From positions 1-20,929 of the IMG/VR virus record IMGVR_UViG_3300042924_003032: 20,929 nucleotides of DNA, one strand, 5' to 3'. The notes under the pieces were generated by a model. The model worked only from the letters and a program-made list of their open reading frames with translations, was not told where the DNA came from and ran no database searches. The DNA is from a virus. The position numbers and the translations under genes were made by a program. Below are positions 2,529 to 16,014 of this stretch, one piece after another (within the stretch, counting starts at the first letter, position 1; every line of letters starts with the position of its first letter).

Positions 2529-2666
2529 TCATCCTCTATTTGTTTCAGTCATATAGTATTCAATGATTTCATCCCATGTATAGTCTGAAAGATCATATCC
2601 TTCCTCCACAAGATCATTTACCCATTCTTCAATTTCTTCAGCAAGAAGATAGTTCTGTTTCTTCAT
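2529..2666 (-). CDS. 45-aa ORF carrying the EEGYDLSDYTW module, overlapping the 427-aa gene
   Basis: From the ATG at 2666 the minus strand encodes 45 residues starting MKKQNYLLAEEIEEW and containing WVNDLVEEGYDLSDYTWDEI before the TGA at 2531-2529. This is clearly the same module as residues 37-60 of the 327-aa protein (WVNSLVEEGYDLSEYTWEDM), so the frame is coding. It overlaps the end of the 427-aa gene by 29 bp in another frame. Either it is a small separate gene read by coupling, or it is the true C-terminus of the 427-aa protein reached by frameshift or separated by a mutation. A strong terminator follows 28 bp downstream. The module's function is unknown; I associate it with virion proteins of T4-like marine phages. 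Confidence 0.72.
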   Translation of the reverse strand: MKKQNYLLAEEIEEWVNDLVEEGYDLSDYTWDEIIEYYMTETNRG

Positions 2667-3921
2667 TCATTTCTAACATTACATAATGTGCTTCTTCAAG
2701 AGTATCAACTTGCTCAGTATCAATTAAATATTCGAGAATAACATCATAAGCATCATACGATTCTTTAGTTGTAGTTTTCTCTGTTTTTTTCTTTAATCTT
2801 TCTTGTTCTTTCTCAATATCCGCCTCAACAGATGATTTATCAATTTGTGCTTCTGGTTTTCCAGTTGTTGGAGTTTGATCCTGTTTTTCATTAGAACCTG
2901 GTTTATCTCTCATTGCAGAAATTTCTTCATATCCAGACTGACCAGGTTTTACCTTAGCAGCAAGTTTTGGATTTGCCTTTGCCCACTGTTGCATCGCAGT
3001 TCCACCTTCTGATTTTTTAGGTGCTGCTGCTGATGATGGTACTGGTTTTGCAAATCCTGAAGGAGATGTGGAAGACCCACCCCCACCACCTGAAGAATTA
3101 GATCCACCACCACCTGAAGAAGATGAAGATTTTGGTCCTACAATCTTTGGTCCTACAATTGCAGGACCTACAATCTTTGGTCCTACAATTGCAGGACCTA
3201 CCTTACCATCTCCGCCTGCACCTCCAAGTTTTGCTCCCATATATCCAGCAAGAACACCAGTACCTCCTATTAAAGCACCCTTTGCAGCAGTCTTTACACC
3301 TTGAATTGCTTTTGCAGTTCTTACTTGTTTTAATAACTCAGTCGATTGTTTAGGTGATAGTGTCCCTTGTGGAACACTTATTCCAGATTTAGATGCTTTT
3401 GATTTTGCAATTTTTTCAACAGCAGCAGCAGTTCTTGTTGGATCTGTACTTTTTGCGAATTGTTTACCAACTCTTTTTTCAACCCCAGCAGTTGCTACTT
3501 TTGCAACTCCTGTTTTAACAGCACCTTTAGTTGCTTTTGCTCCTGCTTTAATTCCACTAGCAGCAGCTTTGGCACCTCTTCCTAAAAGTTTTATTAATCC
3601 AGCAACCTCAAGAAGTTCAAACTGCTCTTCAACAAAATCATTATAAATTACTTCTTCAGAAATAAAATTTATATCAGTACTTAAATATTTTTCTAAAATA
3701 ACTTCTTCATCAGAACTCGCTAAAAACTTAACAAAAGTTTCAGCAGTATAACCCTCAGAAAACATTGCCAAAGCTAAAGAAAGAATAATATCTTCTGTCA
3801 GTTCTGCAGTTTCTTCATCATAATACTCAGATTCTTCATTTAAAAAATCTTGGTCTTTTACATGAATGTTCTCATATAAAAAACCAAGATTGTTAATAAA
3901 GTCTTGCGAAATCCTAGACAT
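2638..3921 (-). CDS. Low-complexity modular virion-type protein (427 aa)
   Basis: The protein starts MSRISQDF, like the 327-aa protein's MSRITGTDAF. It has an acidic helical N-terminal domain (about 25-110), a basic Ala/Lys-rich region (115-215), a glycine-rich hydrophobic patch (218-238), five VGP repeats (241-264), Ser/Gly runs (265-288), a QQWAKANPKLAAKV module (311-324), a charged helix (360-385) and a C-terminal DVILEYLIDTEQVDTLEEAH module (393-412). The last module matches DIVQGYLIDEGYAETEEAAA in the 327-aa protein. Such proteins occur as virion components in T4-like cyanophages as I recall; no enzymatic motif is visible. Transcription probably starts at the TATAAATA box at 3952-3959. 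Its end overlaps the 45-aa ORF, raising the possibility of a broken or frameshifted C-terminus. Confidence 0.75.
   Translation of the reverse strand: MSRISQDFINNLGFLYENIHVKDQDFLNEESEYYDEETAELTEDIILSLALAMFSEGYTAETFVKFLASSDEEVILEKYLSTDINFISEEVIYNDFVEEQFELLEVAGLIKLLGRGAKAAASGIKAGAKATKGAVKTGVAKVATAGVEKRVGKQFAKSTDPTRTAAAVEKIAKSKASKSGISVPQGTLSPKQSTELLKQVRTAKAIQGVKTAAKGALIGGTGVLAGYMGAKLGGAGGDGKVGPAIVGPKIVGPAIVGPKIVGPKSSSSSGGGGSNSSGGGGGSSTSPSGFAKPVPSSAAAPKKSEGGTAMQQWAKANPKLAAKVKPGQSGYEEISAMRDKPGSNEKQDQTPTTGKPEAQIDKSSVEADIEKEQERLKKKTEKTTTKESYDAYDVILEYLIDTEQVDTLEEAHYVMLEMNEETELSSC
3141..3200. repeat. Exact 30-bp tandem duplication inside the 427-aa gene
   Basis: The 30 bases at 3141-3170 are repeated exactly at 3171-3200, with a 10-base partial copy before (3131-3140). 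They encode the VGPAIVGPKI repeats at residues 241-264. The identity at third codon positions shows a recent duplication or ongoing homogenisation. Confidence 0.9.
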
Positions 3922-3963: not shown

Positions 3964-5460
3964 TCACTTACCAGGAAGTGCTTTTACTCCAAGTGCCTTA
4001 TTACGAGCAGCATCATTTTGTCTTGCCGTAGCAAGTTTCTTAGCAGCATTTGCAGCATCAGATTTTTTATATGCACCAGCAAATAAAGATCTGCCAATTC
4101 TTTCTAATGGATTTGAGGAAGTTTTGGCAAGTGATTGAGCACTTGGGCCTGCTTTATAAACTGCTTTACCACCCTTATATGCAAGATGCCCCGCAACTGA
4201 TTGACCACCTCTTTGAACTACACCAGTTTTGGCAAGACCAACTGTTTTTCTTTGTGATCCAGTTCCCGTAGTTATTGTATTCTTTTTAGTATCGAAGGTT
4301 GTTTTACCACCAATACCTTTGATAGCAGTTCCTGCTTGACGTTGACGATTTGCCTTTGCCATTGCCGCTCTTTCTTTTGCATTCGCCCCAGCAGCAGTAT
4401 CGAATGCTCTTCCTGCAAGTTCTGCGCCTCCAATAGCACCAGCAGTACCAAGAGCAGCACTACCAATACCACCACCTCCAAGAGCACCCAGAGCGCCTCC
4501 TGCGAGTCCTCCAGCGGCAACTGTAGCACCTTTAGCAAGTGATCTTGCCCATCCAGATCCCTTTGCTCTTTCATCTGCAGTAGATAATGCAGTATCAAGT
4601 GCTGCGGATGCTGGACCAGCAAATTTTCCTATTTTTGCCCATTTACCGGATGGTTTTACATCTGAGGCTGGTACTATTGCAGAAGAAGATGGTTTTCCCG
4701 TGGTTGTTAAACTTGATGATTGTCTTTTTGCTAATGCACTTGAAGATTTGTTAGTCTTGGCATCATATGCTGCTGCTCTTGCTTCTTTTCTTGCCGCTCT
4801 TTGGCGGCGAATTTCTGCTTCAAGAGATGGAGTAAATTCTCTTCCACCACCAGTAGTAGTGCCAGTAGTTGATTTATTTGTAGATGGAGTTGGTCTTGTT
4901 GGTTTTACTCCAGTAGTTACTCTTGGGTTAGGTTGCTTTACTCCAGGGGATGATTTGGGGTTAGGTGTAGATGACTGCCTTCTTGCAGCATCATATGCTC
5001 CCTGTCCCATTGCATCGGGAAATGCACTAATTGGTTTTGCTAATTTATCACCTTTTTGCGTTTGTCCAGATGCTGGTAATGCAGGTCCTTCAGATTTTCC
5101 AGATAATGTTCTATTACCATAAGGAACTCTACTTGAAGGTGGTTCCGGAAGACCATATTGTTTCTGTGCTTTTCCAGGAAATTGCTTCCAGACATCACGA
5201 GCAGCACCAGAAGGTTTTTTTGGAGTTGCTGGACTTTGTACTGTACTTTTTTTAAATTGAAGATCTGGTCTTGCTGCTGCACCAGATGGTTTTCTTTGCG
5301 CTCTTCTTTGTGCTTTTTCTGCTTCACGAGCATCAATTTTTGCCTTTTCTTCTTCATATGAAGAACCACCACTTCTTCTTTTTCTTGCAGGTCTTCTTTC
5401 ATTAGGTGCCACACCTTCATTTAAATATGATTCTTGCAAAAATTGGCTAAAATCCTTCAT
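3964..5460 (-). CDS. Basic, low-complexity putative internal head protein with T4-like capsid-targeting N-terminus (498 aa)
   Basis: The N-terminus MKDFSQFLQESYLNEG resembles the T4 internal protein targeting peptide (MKTYQEFIAEA in my memory), and LQE at residues 8-10 is a [LI]-x-E site of the type cut by the T4 prohead protease gp21. The rest is strongly basic and disordered up to about 270. It is followed by a WAKIGKFAGPASAALDT region, a glycine-zipper stretch (about 311-350, GGLAGGALGALGGGGIG and on) that could insert in a membrane, then AFDTAAGANAKERAAMAKAN and a basic C-terminus. This fits a protein packaged with DNA and possibly ejected into the host, but that is inference. TATAAATA lies 23 bp before the ATG, behind the terminator of the preceding gene. 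There is no GGAG-type ribosome binding site, only a purine-rich AAGAAAGAG. Confidence 0.75.
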   Translation of the reverse strand: MKDFSQFLQESYLNEGVAPNERRPARKRRSGGSSYEEEKAKIDAREAEKAQRRAQRKPSGAAARPDLQFKKSTVQSPATPKKPSGAARDVWKQFPGKAQKQYGLPEPPSSRVPYGNRTLSGKSEGPALPASGQTQKGDKLAKPISAFPDAMGQGAYDAARRQSSTPNPKSSPGVKQPNPRVTTGVKPTRPTPSTNKSTTGTTTGGGREFTPSLEAEIRRQRAARKEARAAAYDAKTNKSSSALAKRQSSSLTTTGKPSSSAIVPASDVKPSGKWAKIGKFAGPASAALDTALSTADERAKGSGWARSLAKGATVAAGGLAGGALGALGGGGIGSAALGTAGAIGGAELAGRAFDTAAGANAKERAAMAKANRQRQAGTAIKGIGGKTTFDTKKNTITTGTGSQRKTVGLAKTGVVQRGGQSVAGHLAYKGGKAVYKAGPSAQSLAKTSSNPLERIGRSLFAGAYKKSDAANAAKKLATARQNDAARNKALGVKALPGK

Positions 5461-5524: not shown

Positions 5525-5552
5525 AAATTTAAAATAAATTTATTTTAAATTT
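5525..5552. repeat. 28-bp perfect A/T-only palindrome overlapping a stop codon
   Basis: Positions 5525-5552 equal their own reverse complement over all 28 bases, made only of A and T, with centre AAATTT. It covers the last codons and stop of the 327-aa gene and lies just before its GC-stemmed terminator. Confidence 0.9.
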
Positions 5553-6523
5553 GATGGTGTTGGTTTTGCCTGAGTCTGAACAGTTCTATGTTTTACTTCT
5601 GAACTACCTTTTTTATATTTTGCTTCATCTTCCTTCTGAGATTCCTTAGTTGGAAAGTATCCAGACTCAAGAATGCTTTCTTTCCACTCTTCACTCATAT
5701 TTGCCATGATTACTGCTGCTGCCTCTTCAGTTTCAGCATAACCTTCATCAATAAGATAACCTTGTACAATATCAAATGGGTCAAATGAAGAACTAATGCT
5801 TCTCAGTGATCCCGTTTGTGCCATTTTTTTAGGATCTTGCTTAATCTGACTTGGAGCATACCCAGTTTGATAACCAAAGGTTCTCTGCATTAAAGGATTA
5901 AAAGATCTTGCAGGGGCAGCAGGAGTGGTTGCTGGAGCGGTTGTAGGTGCTGTAGTGGTTGGTTTTGCTACTCCTCCTGTGGGGGCAGCAGCAGGTCTTG
6001 CTGGTGCTTGTGCTACAGGTCTTGCTGGAGCTGATGCAGGTGCTGCAACTCTTGGGCCAACTACAGGAGAACCTTGAATTTGTCTTGCTCTGGCAAAAGC
6101 AGCATCACGAGCACCTGCAAAAGGTGATTGATATGATCCTGGAGTTGGGGTTACTCTAAGTGCTCCAGGTGAAGAACTAGTTTGATAAGAAGTTCTATCT
6201 CTTCCAGAACCTCTCATACCATTCATTCCACCTCCTGCAGGTCTATATGCTGGTGATGGTGTAGGTTTTGCTGCTGCTTGTGTGGGAGCATTGCGAGGTG
6301 CAGTCATTTGTCCAGTGGTTGCTCTCTGACCCATTTCATTCAGATACTCTTCGTACATATCTTCCCAAGTATACTCACTCAGGTCATAACCTTCTTCTAC
6401 GAGTGAATTTACCCATGCTTCAACTTCTTCCCAAACTTGCTCTTCTGTGATCTGTTGTGGAGCATAAACCGCATTGTATGCTTCCATCATATTGAAAGCA
6501 TCAGTTCCCGTAATTCTAGACAT
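5540..6523 (-). CDS. Pro/Ala-rich modular virion-type protein (327 aa)
   Basis: The order is: an N-terminal MSRITGTDAFNMMEAYNAVY motif, module A at about 32-65 (WVNSLVEEGYDLSEYTWEDM), a long Pro/Ala/Thr/Gly-rich linker (68-210) with PAR and TTAP repeats, SFNPLMQRTFGYQTGY (207-222), module B at 247-288 (FDPFDIVQGYLIDEGYAETE and MANMSEEWKESI) and a basic tail. Modules A and B recur separately in the neighbouring 45-aa ORF and 427-aa protein. This architecture is what I recall from structural proteins of T4-like cyanophages; no enzymatic residues are visible. It has its own late promoter 24 bp upstream and its own terminator. A 28-bp palindrome overlaps its stop. Confidence 0.77.
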   Translation of the reverse strand: MSRITGTDAFNMMEAYNAVYAPQQITEEQVWEEVEAWVNSLVEEGYDLSEYTWEDMYEEYLNEMGQRATTGQMTAPRNAPTQAAAKPTPSPAYRPAGGGMNGMRGSGRDRTSYQTSSSPGALRVTPTPGSYQSPFAGARDAAFARARQIQGSPVVGPRVAAPASAPARPVAQAPARPAAAPTGGVAKPTTTAPTTAPATTPAAPARSFNPLMQRTFGYQTGYAPSQIKQDPKKMAQTGSLRSISSSFDPFDIVQGYLIDEGYAETEEAAAVIMANMSEEWKESILESGYFPTKESQKEDEAKYKKGSSEVKHRTVQTQAKPTPSNLK

Positions 6524-12181: not shown

Positions 12182-12760
12182 TCAAGCATCTGGATATCTA
12201 ATATCATCGGCAGCGTCATTAATAATACCACCACTATTACTAGAATCTTTACCCATAGCAACAAGAGTTTCCGTTTTAACTCTTAGATTTCCGTGCATAT
12301 CAGTGTAAGTAGTAACTCCTACCCATCCAGCGTGAGCAGGTGCATACTTACGAGCATTGCCAGTAGCAGCATTTGCAACTGTTTGCTCGGCAGTATCTAC
12401 ACCAAATACAGCAGAAAATCTATTTGATTTTACATCTGGTGCAAAATACTGACCATCTTCTAAAGTATATTTTGGTTTTTCAGTTACAGTGTAAGCAACT
12501 CCAACAGTTGCTCCAAACCCAGCGGTTCCTATTCCAGTGATGAATTGGGTTGAACCAATTGATAATATAGTAGCAGAGGTTATTCCACTAATTACTGCTT
12601 GACCGTAAGTAGCTCCAATACCAATTACAAGAATATCTCCGGCAGAAATACCAGCAGTTACAAAAGTTGTACCACTACCGGTTACCGTTTTCGTATCAAG
12701 ATTGATTGTTATAGTTCCAGTCAGATTGCTTAAAGAATCTCTATTGCCCCAAAGAGCCAT
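12182..12760 (-). CDS. Probable virion structural protein (192 aa)
   Basis: The protein begins MALWGNRDSLSNLTGTITIN and is beta-rich with many Gly/Thr/Ser and no charged helices. Residues 1-95 look like repeated beta strands (TGSGTTFVTAGISAGDILVI). The C-terminal half has FAPDVKSNRFSAVFGVDT, HAGWVGVTTYTDMHGNLRVK and TETLVAMGKD. The start MALWG and the end GW...Y-D-GN-R-K-ETLVAM are features I associate with a small structural protein of cyanophage virions. It has a TATAAATA box 30 bp upstream behind a terminator, which supports late expression. Confidence 0.78.
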   Translation of the reverse strand: MALWGNRDSLSNLTGTITINLDTKTVTGSGTTFVTAGISAGDILVIGIGATYGQAVISGITSATILSIGSTQFITGIGTAGFGATVGVAYTVTEKPKYTLEDGQYFAPDVKSNRFSAVFGVDTAEQTVANAATGNARKYAPAHAGWVGVTTYTDMHGNLRVKTETLVAMGKDSSNSGGIINDAADDIRYPDA

Positions 12761-13186: not shown

Positions 13187-14653
13187 TCAAGCAAGTCTAC
13201 GTCTTCTTTCTTCTTCTCTTTCTCCTCTTTCTCTCCTTGATAATTCTGCAGATCTTCTTTGTCTCTTTGTAGCAACTCTATCTGCTGTTGTTTCTTCTCT
13301 TTCTGAAGGACGATCTCTTTCAGGTACTCCTCTTTCTGCTTCATGCTTAGCACGAATTCTACCACCTTTAGTCATTAATCCCTTACCTTCTGGAGATTTT
13401 TTTATTGCTTCTATAGCAGGATTTCTTTTAGGTCTTGGCTTACCCGCATCTTCTCTTCTTCTTTCATCAAGAACCTCACCTTCTGGTTCATAAGACATCT
13501 TGAGACCCATCGCTCTCAATTTATTTTTAAAGTTAGAAACTTTAGTTGGCATTGATCTTGAATCATCCTCAGTTTTTTTATCAGTTCCACAAGACTCTTC
13601 TTTCATTGCCTGCTTACGAATAGTTGCAAAATATACATCTTCACCCTTTTCACCATATTGCTTCTTCATAGATGCTTTCATTCCAGATTTATCATACTTT
13701 TTTTTCAATTTTTTTTCTTTAGTAACCTCACTTTTAGTCATTTCTCTTTCATTTAATAAACCAAGAAATTTAGAATAAGAACTCTCATTTACACCATCAC
13801 TAGGAGAAATTACAACATTATTTTTACCTTTCATTACATCATAAACTTTTTTTTCGGAATTATTATTTTTTTTTACTTCCCCAAGAAATTCTTCTTTCAC
13901 ACTTGAAGTATCTTTACCATCGGGTACACCACCTTTTTTGCGCTGGATTGCATTGTGAACTGCACCACGATATTCTTTTGCAGGGCTTTCTTTTTTACCA
14001 TCGCCATCATAATCCTTACCTGCTGTTGCTGATGCAGTCATTTCACCTTTAGTTCTTTCACCTTCATAAGGTTGACCATATCCAGTCATTTCAACAGATT
14101 CAATATTTGGATTTGCCCTTAATGAATTAATCTTTTCACGAGTTGCAAATCTAACATAAGATGTTCCATTTTTATCAGTGACTCTCACTTTATACTTCTT
14201 ATCACCAGAATTATATTTGTTGCCCTGTGATGCTTCTTCTAATTCATCTTTAAGTTGATCATAATCAACAACATCATTTTTCTTCTCTACAAAAACATTA
14301 TATAATGCTTTTGCAACAGAAAAAGATGCTAAATCAGAAACTCCTTCCAAATATGATTCTTTTACAATTCCACCCTTTCCAAAAAGTTTCTCTCTTACCA
14401 TAGACTTTTCTTGCTCTGACATAGAGCTGTTCTGCATATATTGAGTGTATGCGGATCTTAAAGGAATATTTTCTCTTCTTGCACGGTACTTAATATCATA
14501 AACCGCTTGTCTAACTCTTTTTTCTGGAGTTTTAGATTCACCACCTTGTGAGTCTCTATCACCACCTTGGGAGTCTCTATCACCACCACCTTTTGATAAA
14601 GACGCCTGTGGGAATTTTCTTGCAGGTAAATCTTCAGCAATATGCTTTTTCAT
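13187..14653 (-). CDS. Highly charged modular virion-type protein (488 aa)
   Basis: The protein begins MKKHIAEDLPARKF, followed by GDRDSQGG twice (24-38) and a helical region around 45-140. A stretch with DYDGDGKKES (214-223, an EF-hand-like Asp-x-Asp-Gly-Asp pattern) precedes AKEYRGAVHNAIQRKKGG (225-242). MTKSEVTKEKKLKKKYDKSG (305-324) and YGEKGEDVYFATIRKQAMK follow. The Arg/Glu-rich C-terminus from about 393 (GEVLDERRREDAGKPRPKRN) ends in ERRRRLA. These blocks recur in other low-complexity proteins of T4-like cyanophages in my memory, and the C-terminal block is strongly typical. No enzyme motif is evident; a structural or DNA-associated role is plausible. A CATAAATA box lies 33 bp upstream. 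Confidence 0.74.
   Translation of the reverse strand: MKKHIAEDLPARKFPQASLSKGGGDRDSQGGDRDSQGGESKTPEKRVRQAVYDIKYRARRENIPLRSAYTQYMQNSSMSEQEKSMVREKLFGKGGIVKESYLEGVSDLASFSVAKALYNVFVEKKNDVVDYDQLKDELEEASQGNKYNSGDKKYKVRVTDKNGTSYVRFATREKINSLRANPNIESVEMTGYGQPYEGERTKGEMTASATAGKDYDGDGKKESPAKEYRGAVHNAIQRKKGGVPDGKDTSSVKEEFLGEVKKNNNSEKKVYDVMKGKNNVVISPSDGVNESSYSKFLGLLNEREMTKSEVTKEKKLKKKYDKSGMKASMKKQYGEKGEDVYFATIRKQAMKEESCGTDKKTEDDSRSMPTKVSNFKNKLRAMGLKMSYEPEGEVLDERRREDAGKPRPKRNPAIEAIKKSPEGKGLMTKGGRIRAKHEAERGVPERDRPSEREETTADRVATKRQRRSAELSRRERGEREEERRRRLA
14540..14581. repeat. 21-bp tandem duplication in the 488-aa gene
   Basis: Two adjacent 21-bp units (14540-14560 and 14561-14581) differ at one base and encode the repeated GDRDSQG residues near the N-terminus. 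Confidence 0.85.
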
Positions 14654-14669
14654 GAGAAAACTTTTTACT

Positions 14670-15965
14670 TTACTTTTTTCTATTTCTATTTATGAAATTC
14701 TTTATACTAGAAATTCCCATAACTTCCATTGCATTTTTTCTATATCCATCAGTTCCGATTAAAGTATTTCTTTTTCCAGGAACTCTCATTTTTCTGGACA
14801 TATGCTTTTCAGTATACGCTTCAGAAACATCTTTAATCCATGACTTAAACATCATACCATCTTCAGTAACACAAATTAAATAATTAGTTCCTCTACGAAT
14901 AATTCTTCCAGAAAGACCAGTATTTAAATTTTCAACTATAGTACCAACTTTAAAAATATTTCCAGAAACATAATTTTCTCTCAATGATTGTAAATCAAAC
15001 TTTGGTGCAATTTCCCATAAGTTATATCCTTCTTGCTGTATTTCTTCAATTCCCATACCTTGACGAACTAAGTCAAAAAGTTGAATAATTTCTTTTCTTG
15101 GTATTGATTGTGGTATTAAATTTCTAAAGGTAACCAGGTCACCTTCAGCAGCAGCAAGTCTTAGTCTGGATGAAGTTATTCCATCTACTTCCTTTCCATC
15201 AGCATCAATTTCACCAACAGGTAAAACCTCAATCATATCAAACAAATATAACTGTCCATTATAATTGTTTGCTAAATTCTCAAATTCTTTTACTCTTGTA
15301 GTTCCACATACAATTCTTACAGATGAATACCCATCATTATGCACTTTTTTGAGAGTATCAAAAATTGTAATTTGATTAGGATCATTTACTATTCTTTCCC
15401 CATGATCTGGAAATAATTTTCTCATAAAAAATATCTTTGTATCAGGATCTAATGGATTCTTTTTGGGATCAAAACTACGTGAAGGAACTATCACATATTC
15501 ACCACCTTCTTCTGCTGCAATTTGTGCTGCAGTATCCATCAATTCTTGATGTGCAACTGTAGGAGGATTAAATCTACCAAATACAATTGTTAATGTATCT
15601 TTTGTTTTTTCAACGGGAAGAAAACTTTGTGAAACTTGTTCTTGAGGAATTTCTTCCTGAGGTATTTGCTCTTGAGGAATCTGTTCTTGAGGTACTTGCT
15701 GGACCTGCTGAACTTGTTGAGTCATCGTAGGATCACTGTACCCAGGAGAAGCAATTTGTTTTTCTTTTGGTGTCTGTGCTGGATCTTTTCCAGGTACTCT
15801 TTGCCTCTTATTATAATACTGCAATCCACCACCAACTGTTTTAGCCTCAAATTCACCAGTTGCTCTATTATACCAACCACCATGACCATCTCCAACAAGA
15901 CCTAATCTTTTTGCTTGTTGAGAAGCTGCGGTTGCTTCTGTAATAAATTTTGAGAATAATTTCAT
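14670..15965 (-). CDS. Nucleotidyltransferase with T4 internal-protein-like capsid-targeting N-terminus (431 aa)
   Basis: I place the start at the ATG at 15965; the longer frame begins at an unlikely TTG. The N-terminus MKLFSKFITEATAAS resembles the T4 internal-protein targeting peptide, with ITE at 8-10 as a candidate gp21 protease site. Next come KRLGLVGDGHGGWYNRATGE (19-38), Gln/Pro repeats (83-113, QEQIP), then a cytidylyltransferase-like domain (about 124-300). That domain has FGRFNPPTVAHQELM, a (H/T)-x-x-H nucleotide site at 136-139, PSRSFDPKKNPLD, and ITSSRLRL (263-270), the ISSTxxR-type motif. The C-terminus carries GTIVENLNTGLSGRIIRRGT (341-360) and LICVTEDGMMFKSW. The substrate is unknown: NMN, nicotinate mononucleotide, phosphopantetheine and glycerol-phosphate enzymes share the fold. 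Packaging of the enzyme in the head is inferred from the N-terminus. Confidence 0.85.
   Translation of the reverse strand: MKLFSKFITEATAASQQAKRLGLVGDGHGGWYNRATGEFEAKTVGGGLQYYNKRQRVPGKDPAQTPKEKQIASPGYSDPTMTQQVQQVQQVPQEQIPQEQIPQEEIPQEQVSQSFLPVEKTKDTLTIVFGRFNPPTVAHQELMDTAAQIAAEEGGEYVIVPSRSFDPKKNPLDPDTKIFFMRKLFPDHGERIVNDPNQITIFDTLKKVHNDGYSSVRIVCGTTRVKEFENLANNYNGQLYLFDMIEVLPVGEIDADGKEVDGITSSRLRLAAAEGDLVTFRNLIPQSIPRKEIIQLFDLVRQGMGIEEIQQEGYNLWEIAPKFDLQSLRENYVSGNIFKVGTIVENLNTGLSGRIIRRGTNYLICVTEDGMMFKSWIKDVSEAYTEKHMSRKMRVPGKRNTLIGTDGYRKNAMEVMGISSIKNFINRNRKK
14687..14694 (-). promoter_or_regulatory. Late-type box CATAAATA for the 488-aa gene
   Basis: CATAAATA on the minus strand fits NATAAATA and ends 33 bp before the ATG at 14653. 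It lies inside the end of the nucleotidyltransferase gene. Confidence 0.5.
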
Positions 15966-16002
15966 TACTTTATATAAGTATACTTCTACACACAATATAA
16001 AG

Positions 16003-16009
16003 TATTTAG
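16003..16009 (-). promoter_or_regulatory. Late-type box CTAAATA for the nucleotidyltransferase gene
   Basis: CTAAATACTT on the minus strand ends 37 bp before the ATG at 15965 and lies 6 bp beyond the 3' end of tRNA-Ala. This supports the shorter start, since the TTG at 15995 would lie within the first bases of the transcript. Confidence 0.45.
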
Positions 16010-16014
16010 TAATA

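Follow-up and report, generated by a model that had tools for sequence, protein, structure and literature searches.

A probable T4-type capsid-targeting leader on a cyanophage nucleotidyltransferase, a likely enzyme cargo of the virion

Background

The capsid-targeting sequence of bacteriophage T4 is well known. According to a review of mutagenesis work, only the first ten residues of the T4 internal protein IPIII are required, with targeting depending mainly on residues 4 and 7 and processing on residues 8 and 10 (PMC9026906). In the T4 genome (NC_000866) ipII starts MKTYQEFIAEARV and ipIII starts MKTYQEFIAEASVV, both reading MKTYQEFIAE/A, where here and below a slash marks a cut or predicted cut.

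The T4-GC190 'cytidyltransferase' gene family has been reported as core in marine T4-like cyanophages, and its products have been found repeatedly in virions. Detection has been published for the S-SM1 orthologue (SSM1_190, starting MKKFSAFLNEA), the S-SCSM1 orthologue (NMNAT, MKSFLQFLKEA) and the S-CREM2 orthologue gp154 (MKNFSSFLTEA); the S-SZBM1 orthologue, with a leader one residue shorter (MRFRQFIIEA), has also been detected. Virion presence and the idea of injection are already published, and what is new here is the link between the T4 capsid-targeting leader and cyanophage virion enzymes. The accessible text of the papers on the family makes no connection to a targeting leader, and a search of freely available journal papers returned only the T4 review, wider searches judged by title and abstract likewise turning up no paper that joins such a leader to a cyanophage.

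The nucleotidyltransferase gene and its family

The window (the whole 20,929-nucleotide stretch analysed, IMG/VR record IMGVR_UViG_3300042924_003032) covers part of a T4-like cyanomyovirus genome, and the isolate closest to it is the freshwater phage S-SRM01. The features considered are as follows:

14670..15965 (-), nucleotidyltransferase gene, ATG start, 431 aa, T4-GC190 / phrog_395 family
15936..15965 (-), leader MKLFSKFITE, predicted capsid-targeting propeptide, residues 1-10, predicted cut after Glu10
15810..15923 (-), DGHGGWY module, residues about 15-52
15624..15806 (-), Gln/Pro-rich linker, probably disordered, residues 54-114 (low confidence, pLDDT below 50)
15057..15605 (-), HIGH-superfamily nucleotidyltransferase domain, residues 121-303 (pLDDT mostly 82-92)
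15549..15560 (-), T136-V-A-H139 nucleotide-binding motif, TVGH in most relatives
15159..15170 (-), S266-R-L-R269, second motif (SxxR), consensus SASKMR
14826..14945 (-), small C-terminal beta domain, residues about 341-380
16003..16010 (-), ACTAAATA, late-promoter motif differing from the standard NATAAATA, 45 nt before the enzyme ATG
3964..5460 (-), second leader protein of the window, MKDFSQFLQE/S, 498 aa, with TATAAATA 30 nt upstream

The translation of the enzyme gene opens with MKLFSKFITEATAAS. The mechanically called reading frame begins at a longer TTG start at 15995, which was rejected in favour of the ATG, the point where orthologue conservation sets in. The corrected start proposed in the preliminary description is accepted because 80/80 of the nearest environmental orthologues are conserved from precisely this ATG onward. 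By sequence the protein is an orthologue of the T4-GC190 / phrog_395 family: it matches the phrog_395 profile with 294 bits (5e-87) and shares 54.7% identity with PSSM2_194 of P-SSM2, labelled T4-GC 190. In several phage records the enzyme goes under the name 'ribonucleotide reductase A' or 'NrdB', a misannotation that appears to have been propagated.

The nucleotidyltransferase domain scores above threshold against PF01467 (CTP_transf_like; 26 bits, gathering cut-off 21). The domain assignment of the preliminary description thus stands, although its alternative HxxH form does not apply: the first motif is of the TxxH form and the second reads ITSSRLR. T136, H139 and R269 do not vary in 61 diverse sequences, so that selection must act on the active site, and S266 is almost invariant. 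A conserved [LM]RE (LRENY in the window, 14976-14984; present in clades A, B and D) precedes the C-terminal beta domain. It fits the [LI]xE cleavage rule, which is too common a pattern to make it more than a possible second cut. Elsewhere in the window, a plus-strand gene candidate (2011-2436) has GFVYIITNLTNNKKYIGKK near its start and resembles a GIY-YIG homing endonuclease.

The leader and its conservation

The preliminary description likened the start of the enzyme to the targeting peptide of the T4 internal proteins. The window leader MKLFSKFITE/A is indeed like that of ipII and ipIII, and the start of ipI, MKTFKEFTSTTTPVSTITEA, is similar only in part. All the key positions of the T4-type leader (4, 7, 8 and 10) are suitably occupied in the window enzyme. 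The leader is present in 207/207 orthologues with complete 5′ ends, drawn from three environmental clades (A, B and D); as the queries were chosen, the proportion of loci with and without the leader should not be taken as a frequency. Among 136 sequences with distinct first 60 residues, K2, F7 and E10 are kept in 100%, only F, Y or L occurs at position 4 and only L, I or V at position 8, and 97% have Ala as residue 11; positions 3, 5, 6 and 9 are variable. Since the same positions are kept, the conservation mirrors the T4 mutagenesis, and this extends to the processing Glu. The leader is predicted to be helical at residues 4-20.

In S-SRM01, S-SCSM1 and most of T4, the motif was fitted by 0/2,876 internal Met windows and by 3/114,834 internal 9-mers, and these background counts, with the 207/207 conservation, rule out a chance resemblance. 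A generic phage N-terminus was likewise rejected, as each genome has no more than a handful of leader ORFs: the window has 2, S-SRM01 has 4, S-SCSM1 has 2 that are credible, and the scanned portion of S-CREM2 has 3. A T4 protein of 54 aa, gp61.1 (gene 61.1, L089 18966-19130), starts MKTFKEFIKED and matches the capsid-targeting pattern.

Residues 8-10 (ITE) fit the [LI]xE cleavage rule, as the preliminary description pointed out. The window contig is without gp21 and gp23, so the comparison with the protease and the capsid protein rests on relatives, in which the capsid protein has such a site: FLSE/A in S-SRM01, FLAE/A in S-SCSM1, LLTE/A in S-CREM2 and FLTE/A in T4. Actual cleavage of the capsid protein at such a site is known for T4 only. 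A 'primosomal protein' of S-SRM01 (L086 35233-35883) closely resembles the prohead protease gp21 of S-SCSM1 and occupies the corresponding position; its name is probably wrong.

An apparently detachable leader and its other carriers

Downstream of the leader, the window enzyme and that of S-SCSM1 have the DGHG module and that of S-SM1 has a different spacer, and in S-CRM01, S-CREM2 and Phage C48C1 the enzyme starts almost directly behind the leader (in Phage C48C1 the leader, IKNFSQYLLEE, would be given by an unannotated non-ATG start). The leader is thus kept whereas the sequence behind it differs from clade to clade, as expected of a detachable signal. The second leader protein of the window (3964-5460) is unrelated to the enzyme and has no match in Pfam or PHROGs; the leader is retained in almost all of its relatives.

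Similar starts are found among the virion proteins of S-CREM2: MKDFDSFLEE in the SAM lyase (L387 3837-5081), MKDLHSFLTE in gp13 (L387 10310-10546), MQTFSMFFSED in gp136 (L389 3302-4015) and, from a GTG start, [M]KRFDAFLTEE in an APH-like kinase (L387 10579-12846). The virion protein gp12 of the same phage (L387 7704-10313) has the leader-like FASFMAE/AA within its N-terminus and, behind it, a relative of the DGHG module of the window enzyme; its authors named it Cas9, a name that no Pfam match supports. The DGHGGWY module also occurs in S-CRM01 gp128. In its general form, RLGLVxDGHG[GS][WY] ... A[KR]TVxGxL, the module corresponds to no Pfam family and is common to otherwise unrelated virion enzymes, being internal once, in the kinase; carriers include the window (15810-15923), L313 2378-2929 and the kinase gene at L387 10579-12846.

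Presence in virions

The preliminary description read the protein as addressed to the phage head. Its presence in virions is published for the leader-bearing orthologues of the four isolates named above; virions of the window phage itself are not among them. The best test comes from S-CREM2, whose virion table is printed in the article itself. When about 142 kb of this phage were scanned in six frames, the only ATG-started leader ORFs were the SAM lyase, a small protein and the nucleotidyltransferase. According to the published tables all three are in virions (3/3; hypergeometric probability about 0.011, based on hand counts of about 205 genes and 46 virion proteins). Adding the GTG-started kinase, a case spotted only while reading the virion list, gives 4/4 and about 0.002. 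In S-SCSM1 the two leader proteins make a weak test taken alone: one belongs to the virion, and the other, gp030 (106 aa), is without virion-protein annotation. In two proteome studies the authors caution that carry-over contaminants are possible after CsCl purification.

Homologues lacking the leader, named in the preliminary description as evidence against targeting, do exist in one clade, that of S-CAM1, P-HM1 and S-PM2; the complete orthologues of clades A, B and D all keep it. The enzyme of S-CAM1 and P-HM1 is 187-188 aa long, with the beta domain as a separate gene or fused elsewhere, and in S-PM2 (L312 1777-3552) the leaderless nucleotidyltransferase is fused to DUF6267. DUF6267, encoded by the adjacent gene in S-SM1 and P-HM1, contains a KWDGAP motif that recalls ligase-type nucleotidyltransferases. 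The leaderless S-PM2 enzyme was undetected in the virion; this fits the model but counts little, because the same study missed several known virion proteins.

Late promoter motifs and probable late expression

The late promoter of cyanophages has been described as NATAAATA (PMC2984593), and the variant ACTAAATA precedes the window enzyme. A late-type motif at -65 to -20, found in about 4% of random stretches, precedes the gene at 44/53 distinct loci of clade A and 32/34 of clade D. In clade B it lies directly upstream at 0/33 loci, perhaps because the gene there overlaps the preceding one.

Within the window, NATAAATA occurs at seven sites on the minus strand, which bears the genes (16519, 14694, 12798, 6555, 5490, 3959 and 365), versus two on the opposite strand. 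Sites lie upstream of 13187-14653, 12182-12760, 5540-6523, 3964-5460 and 2638-3921, and most stand 30-41 nt before genes of unknown function. None precedes the nrdA, nrdB, primase, uvsX, gp41 and mazG genes of the window, and this distribution suggests that late genes are probably embedded within its replication-gene region.

Interpretation and alternatives

The presence of a T4-like leader on a nucleotidyltransferase, first noticed in the preliminary description, is borne out by the translation, the T4 comparison, the conservation and the domain profiles. The further reading of an enzyme addressed to the head draws support from the conserved T4 positions, the four virion isolates, the promoter motif and the S-CREM2 enzymes, and it is likely that the window protein is a late-expressed virion enzyme cargo loaded by a T4-type leader. 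The first ten residues would act as a T4-type capsid-targeting sequence and bind the enzyme to the prohead core, and the prohead protease gp21 would probably cut the leader off after Glu10. The DGHG module, linker, nucleotidyltransferase and C-terminal beta domain would then stay inside the head, and the enzyme would probably enter the host with the DNA and act ahead of phage gene expression.

An abundant late cytoplasmic protein could instead co-purify with virions, its N-terminal helix serving its own fold or the binding of a partner rather than the prohead. The carry-over caution of the two proteome papers, the predicted helix and the retention of the enzyme by the leaderless clade are all in keeping with this. 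The conserved positions, on the other hand, are those of the T4 signal, down to the processing Glu, the leader is common to unrelated proteins (with the 3/3 result in S-CREM2), and virion detection has been repeated in four isolates, which makes co-purification improbable. Still smaller is the probability that the leader is a scaffold-binding peptide of a structural or assembly part of the head core, with catalysis irrelevant to delivery: the invariance of T136, H139 and R269 and the retention of the nucleotidyltransferase as a free enzyme in the leaderless clade argue against such a role, even though T4 internal proteins are located in the core and the S-SCSM1 gene adjoins the virion proteins gp089, gp282, gp280 and gp279, whose function is unknown.

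The structure comparison with NadD and CoaD suggested in the preliminary description settled the superfamily and gave no single substrate family, because in a Foldseek search with the predicted structure NadD, CoaD and FAD synthetase structures match at similar levels. A profile search of solved structures gave a single, non-significant match (E 0.67). One refinement of the cargo reading, in which an NMN/NaMN adenylyltransferase would be delivered to restore NAD depleted by host defence, is possible though doubtful. The best Foldseek E-values belong to NadD structures, relatives are annotated NMNAT with a role in NAD proposed, and phage NAD salvage has been discussed (PMC9503650). CoaD and FAD synthetase structures nevertheless fit about as well, and the enzyme falls below the curated models for NadD (TIGR00482, 13.6 bits, cut-off 112.45) and NadR (11.5 bits, cut-off 341.15) and has no match to that for NadM, so NMNAT was rejected as a firm name.

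Beyond this one enzyme, there is a somewhat better than even chance that in cyanobacterial myoviruses a single T4-type leader, often with the DGHG module (hitherto without a name) behind it, is a general address loading an enzyme set into the head (nucleotidyltransferase, kinase, SAM lyase and HNH-like nuclease). If so, the injected proteome would be predictable from sequence. The enzyme family has repeatedly been met in virions without explanation, and the ten-residue leader would supply one; it would also tell true cargo from carry-over and yield a list of what some very abundant viruses of oceans and lakes deliver as infection begins.

Comparison with known systems

Among known systems, the T4-GC190 'cytidyltransferases' of cyanophages (SSM1_190, the S-SCSM1 NMNAT and gp154) are orthologous to the window enzyme and published as virion proteins. 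With bacterial NadD and CoaD it has the HIGH-superfamily fold in common, although it fails the curated NadD, NadR and NadM cut-offs. T4 Alt is likewise a head-carried enzyme, noted in its record as acting on the host at once, but it is an ADP-ribosyltransferase unrelated to the window nucleotidyltransferase. The leader itself is matched most closely by T4 IPII and IPIII, which like the window enzyme have a ten-residue N-terminal leader with K2, aromatic residues at 4 and 7, I/L at 8 and E10, belong to the shared T4-like lineage with a gp21-type protease, and have a late promoter motif. They differ in that the cut after Glu10 is only predicted in the window enzyme, and in that T4 internal-protein cargo is 100-193 aa long whereas the window enzyme has 431 aa, with an intact active site and a DGHG module. 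The addressing system of T4, a phage of E. coli, would extend to the phages of cyanobacteria.
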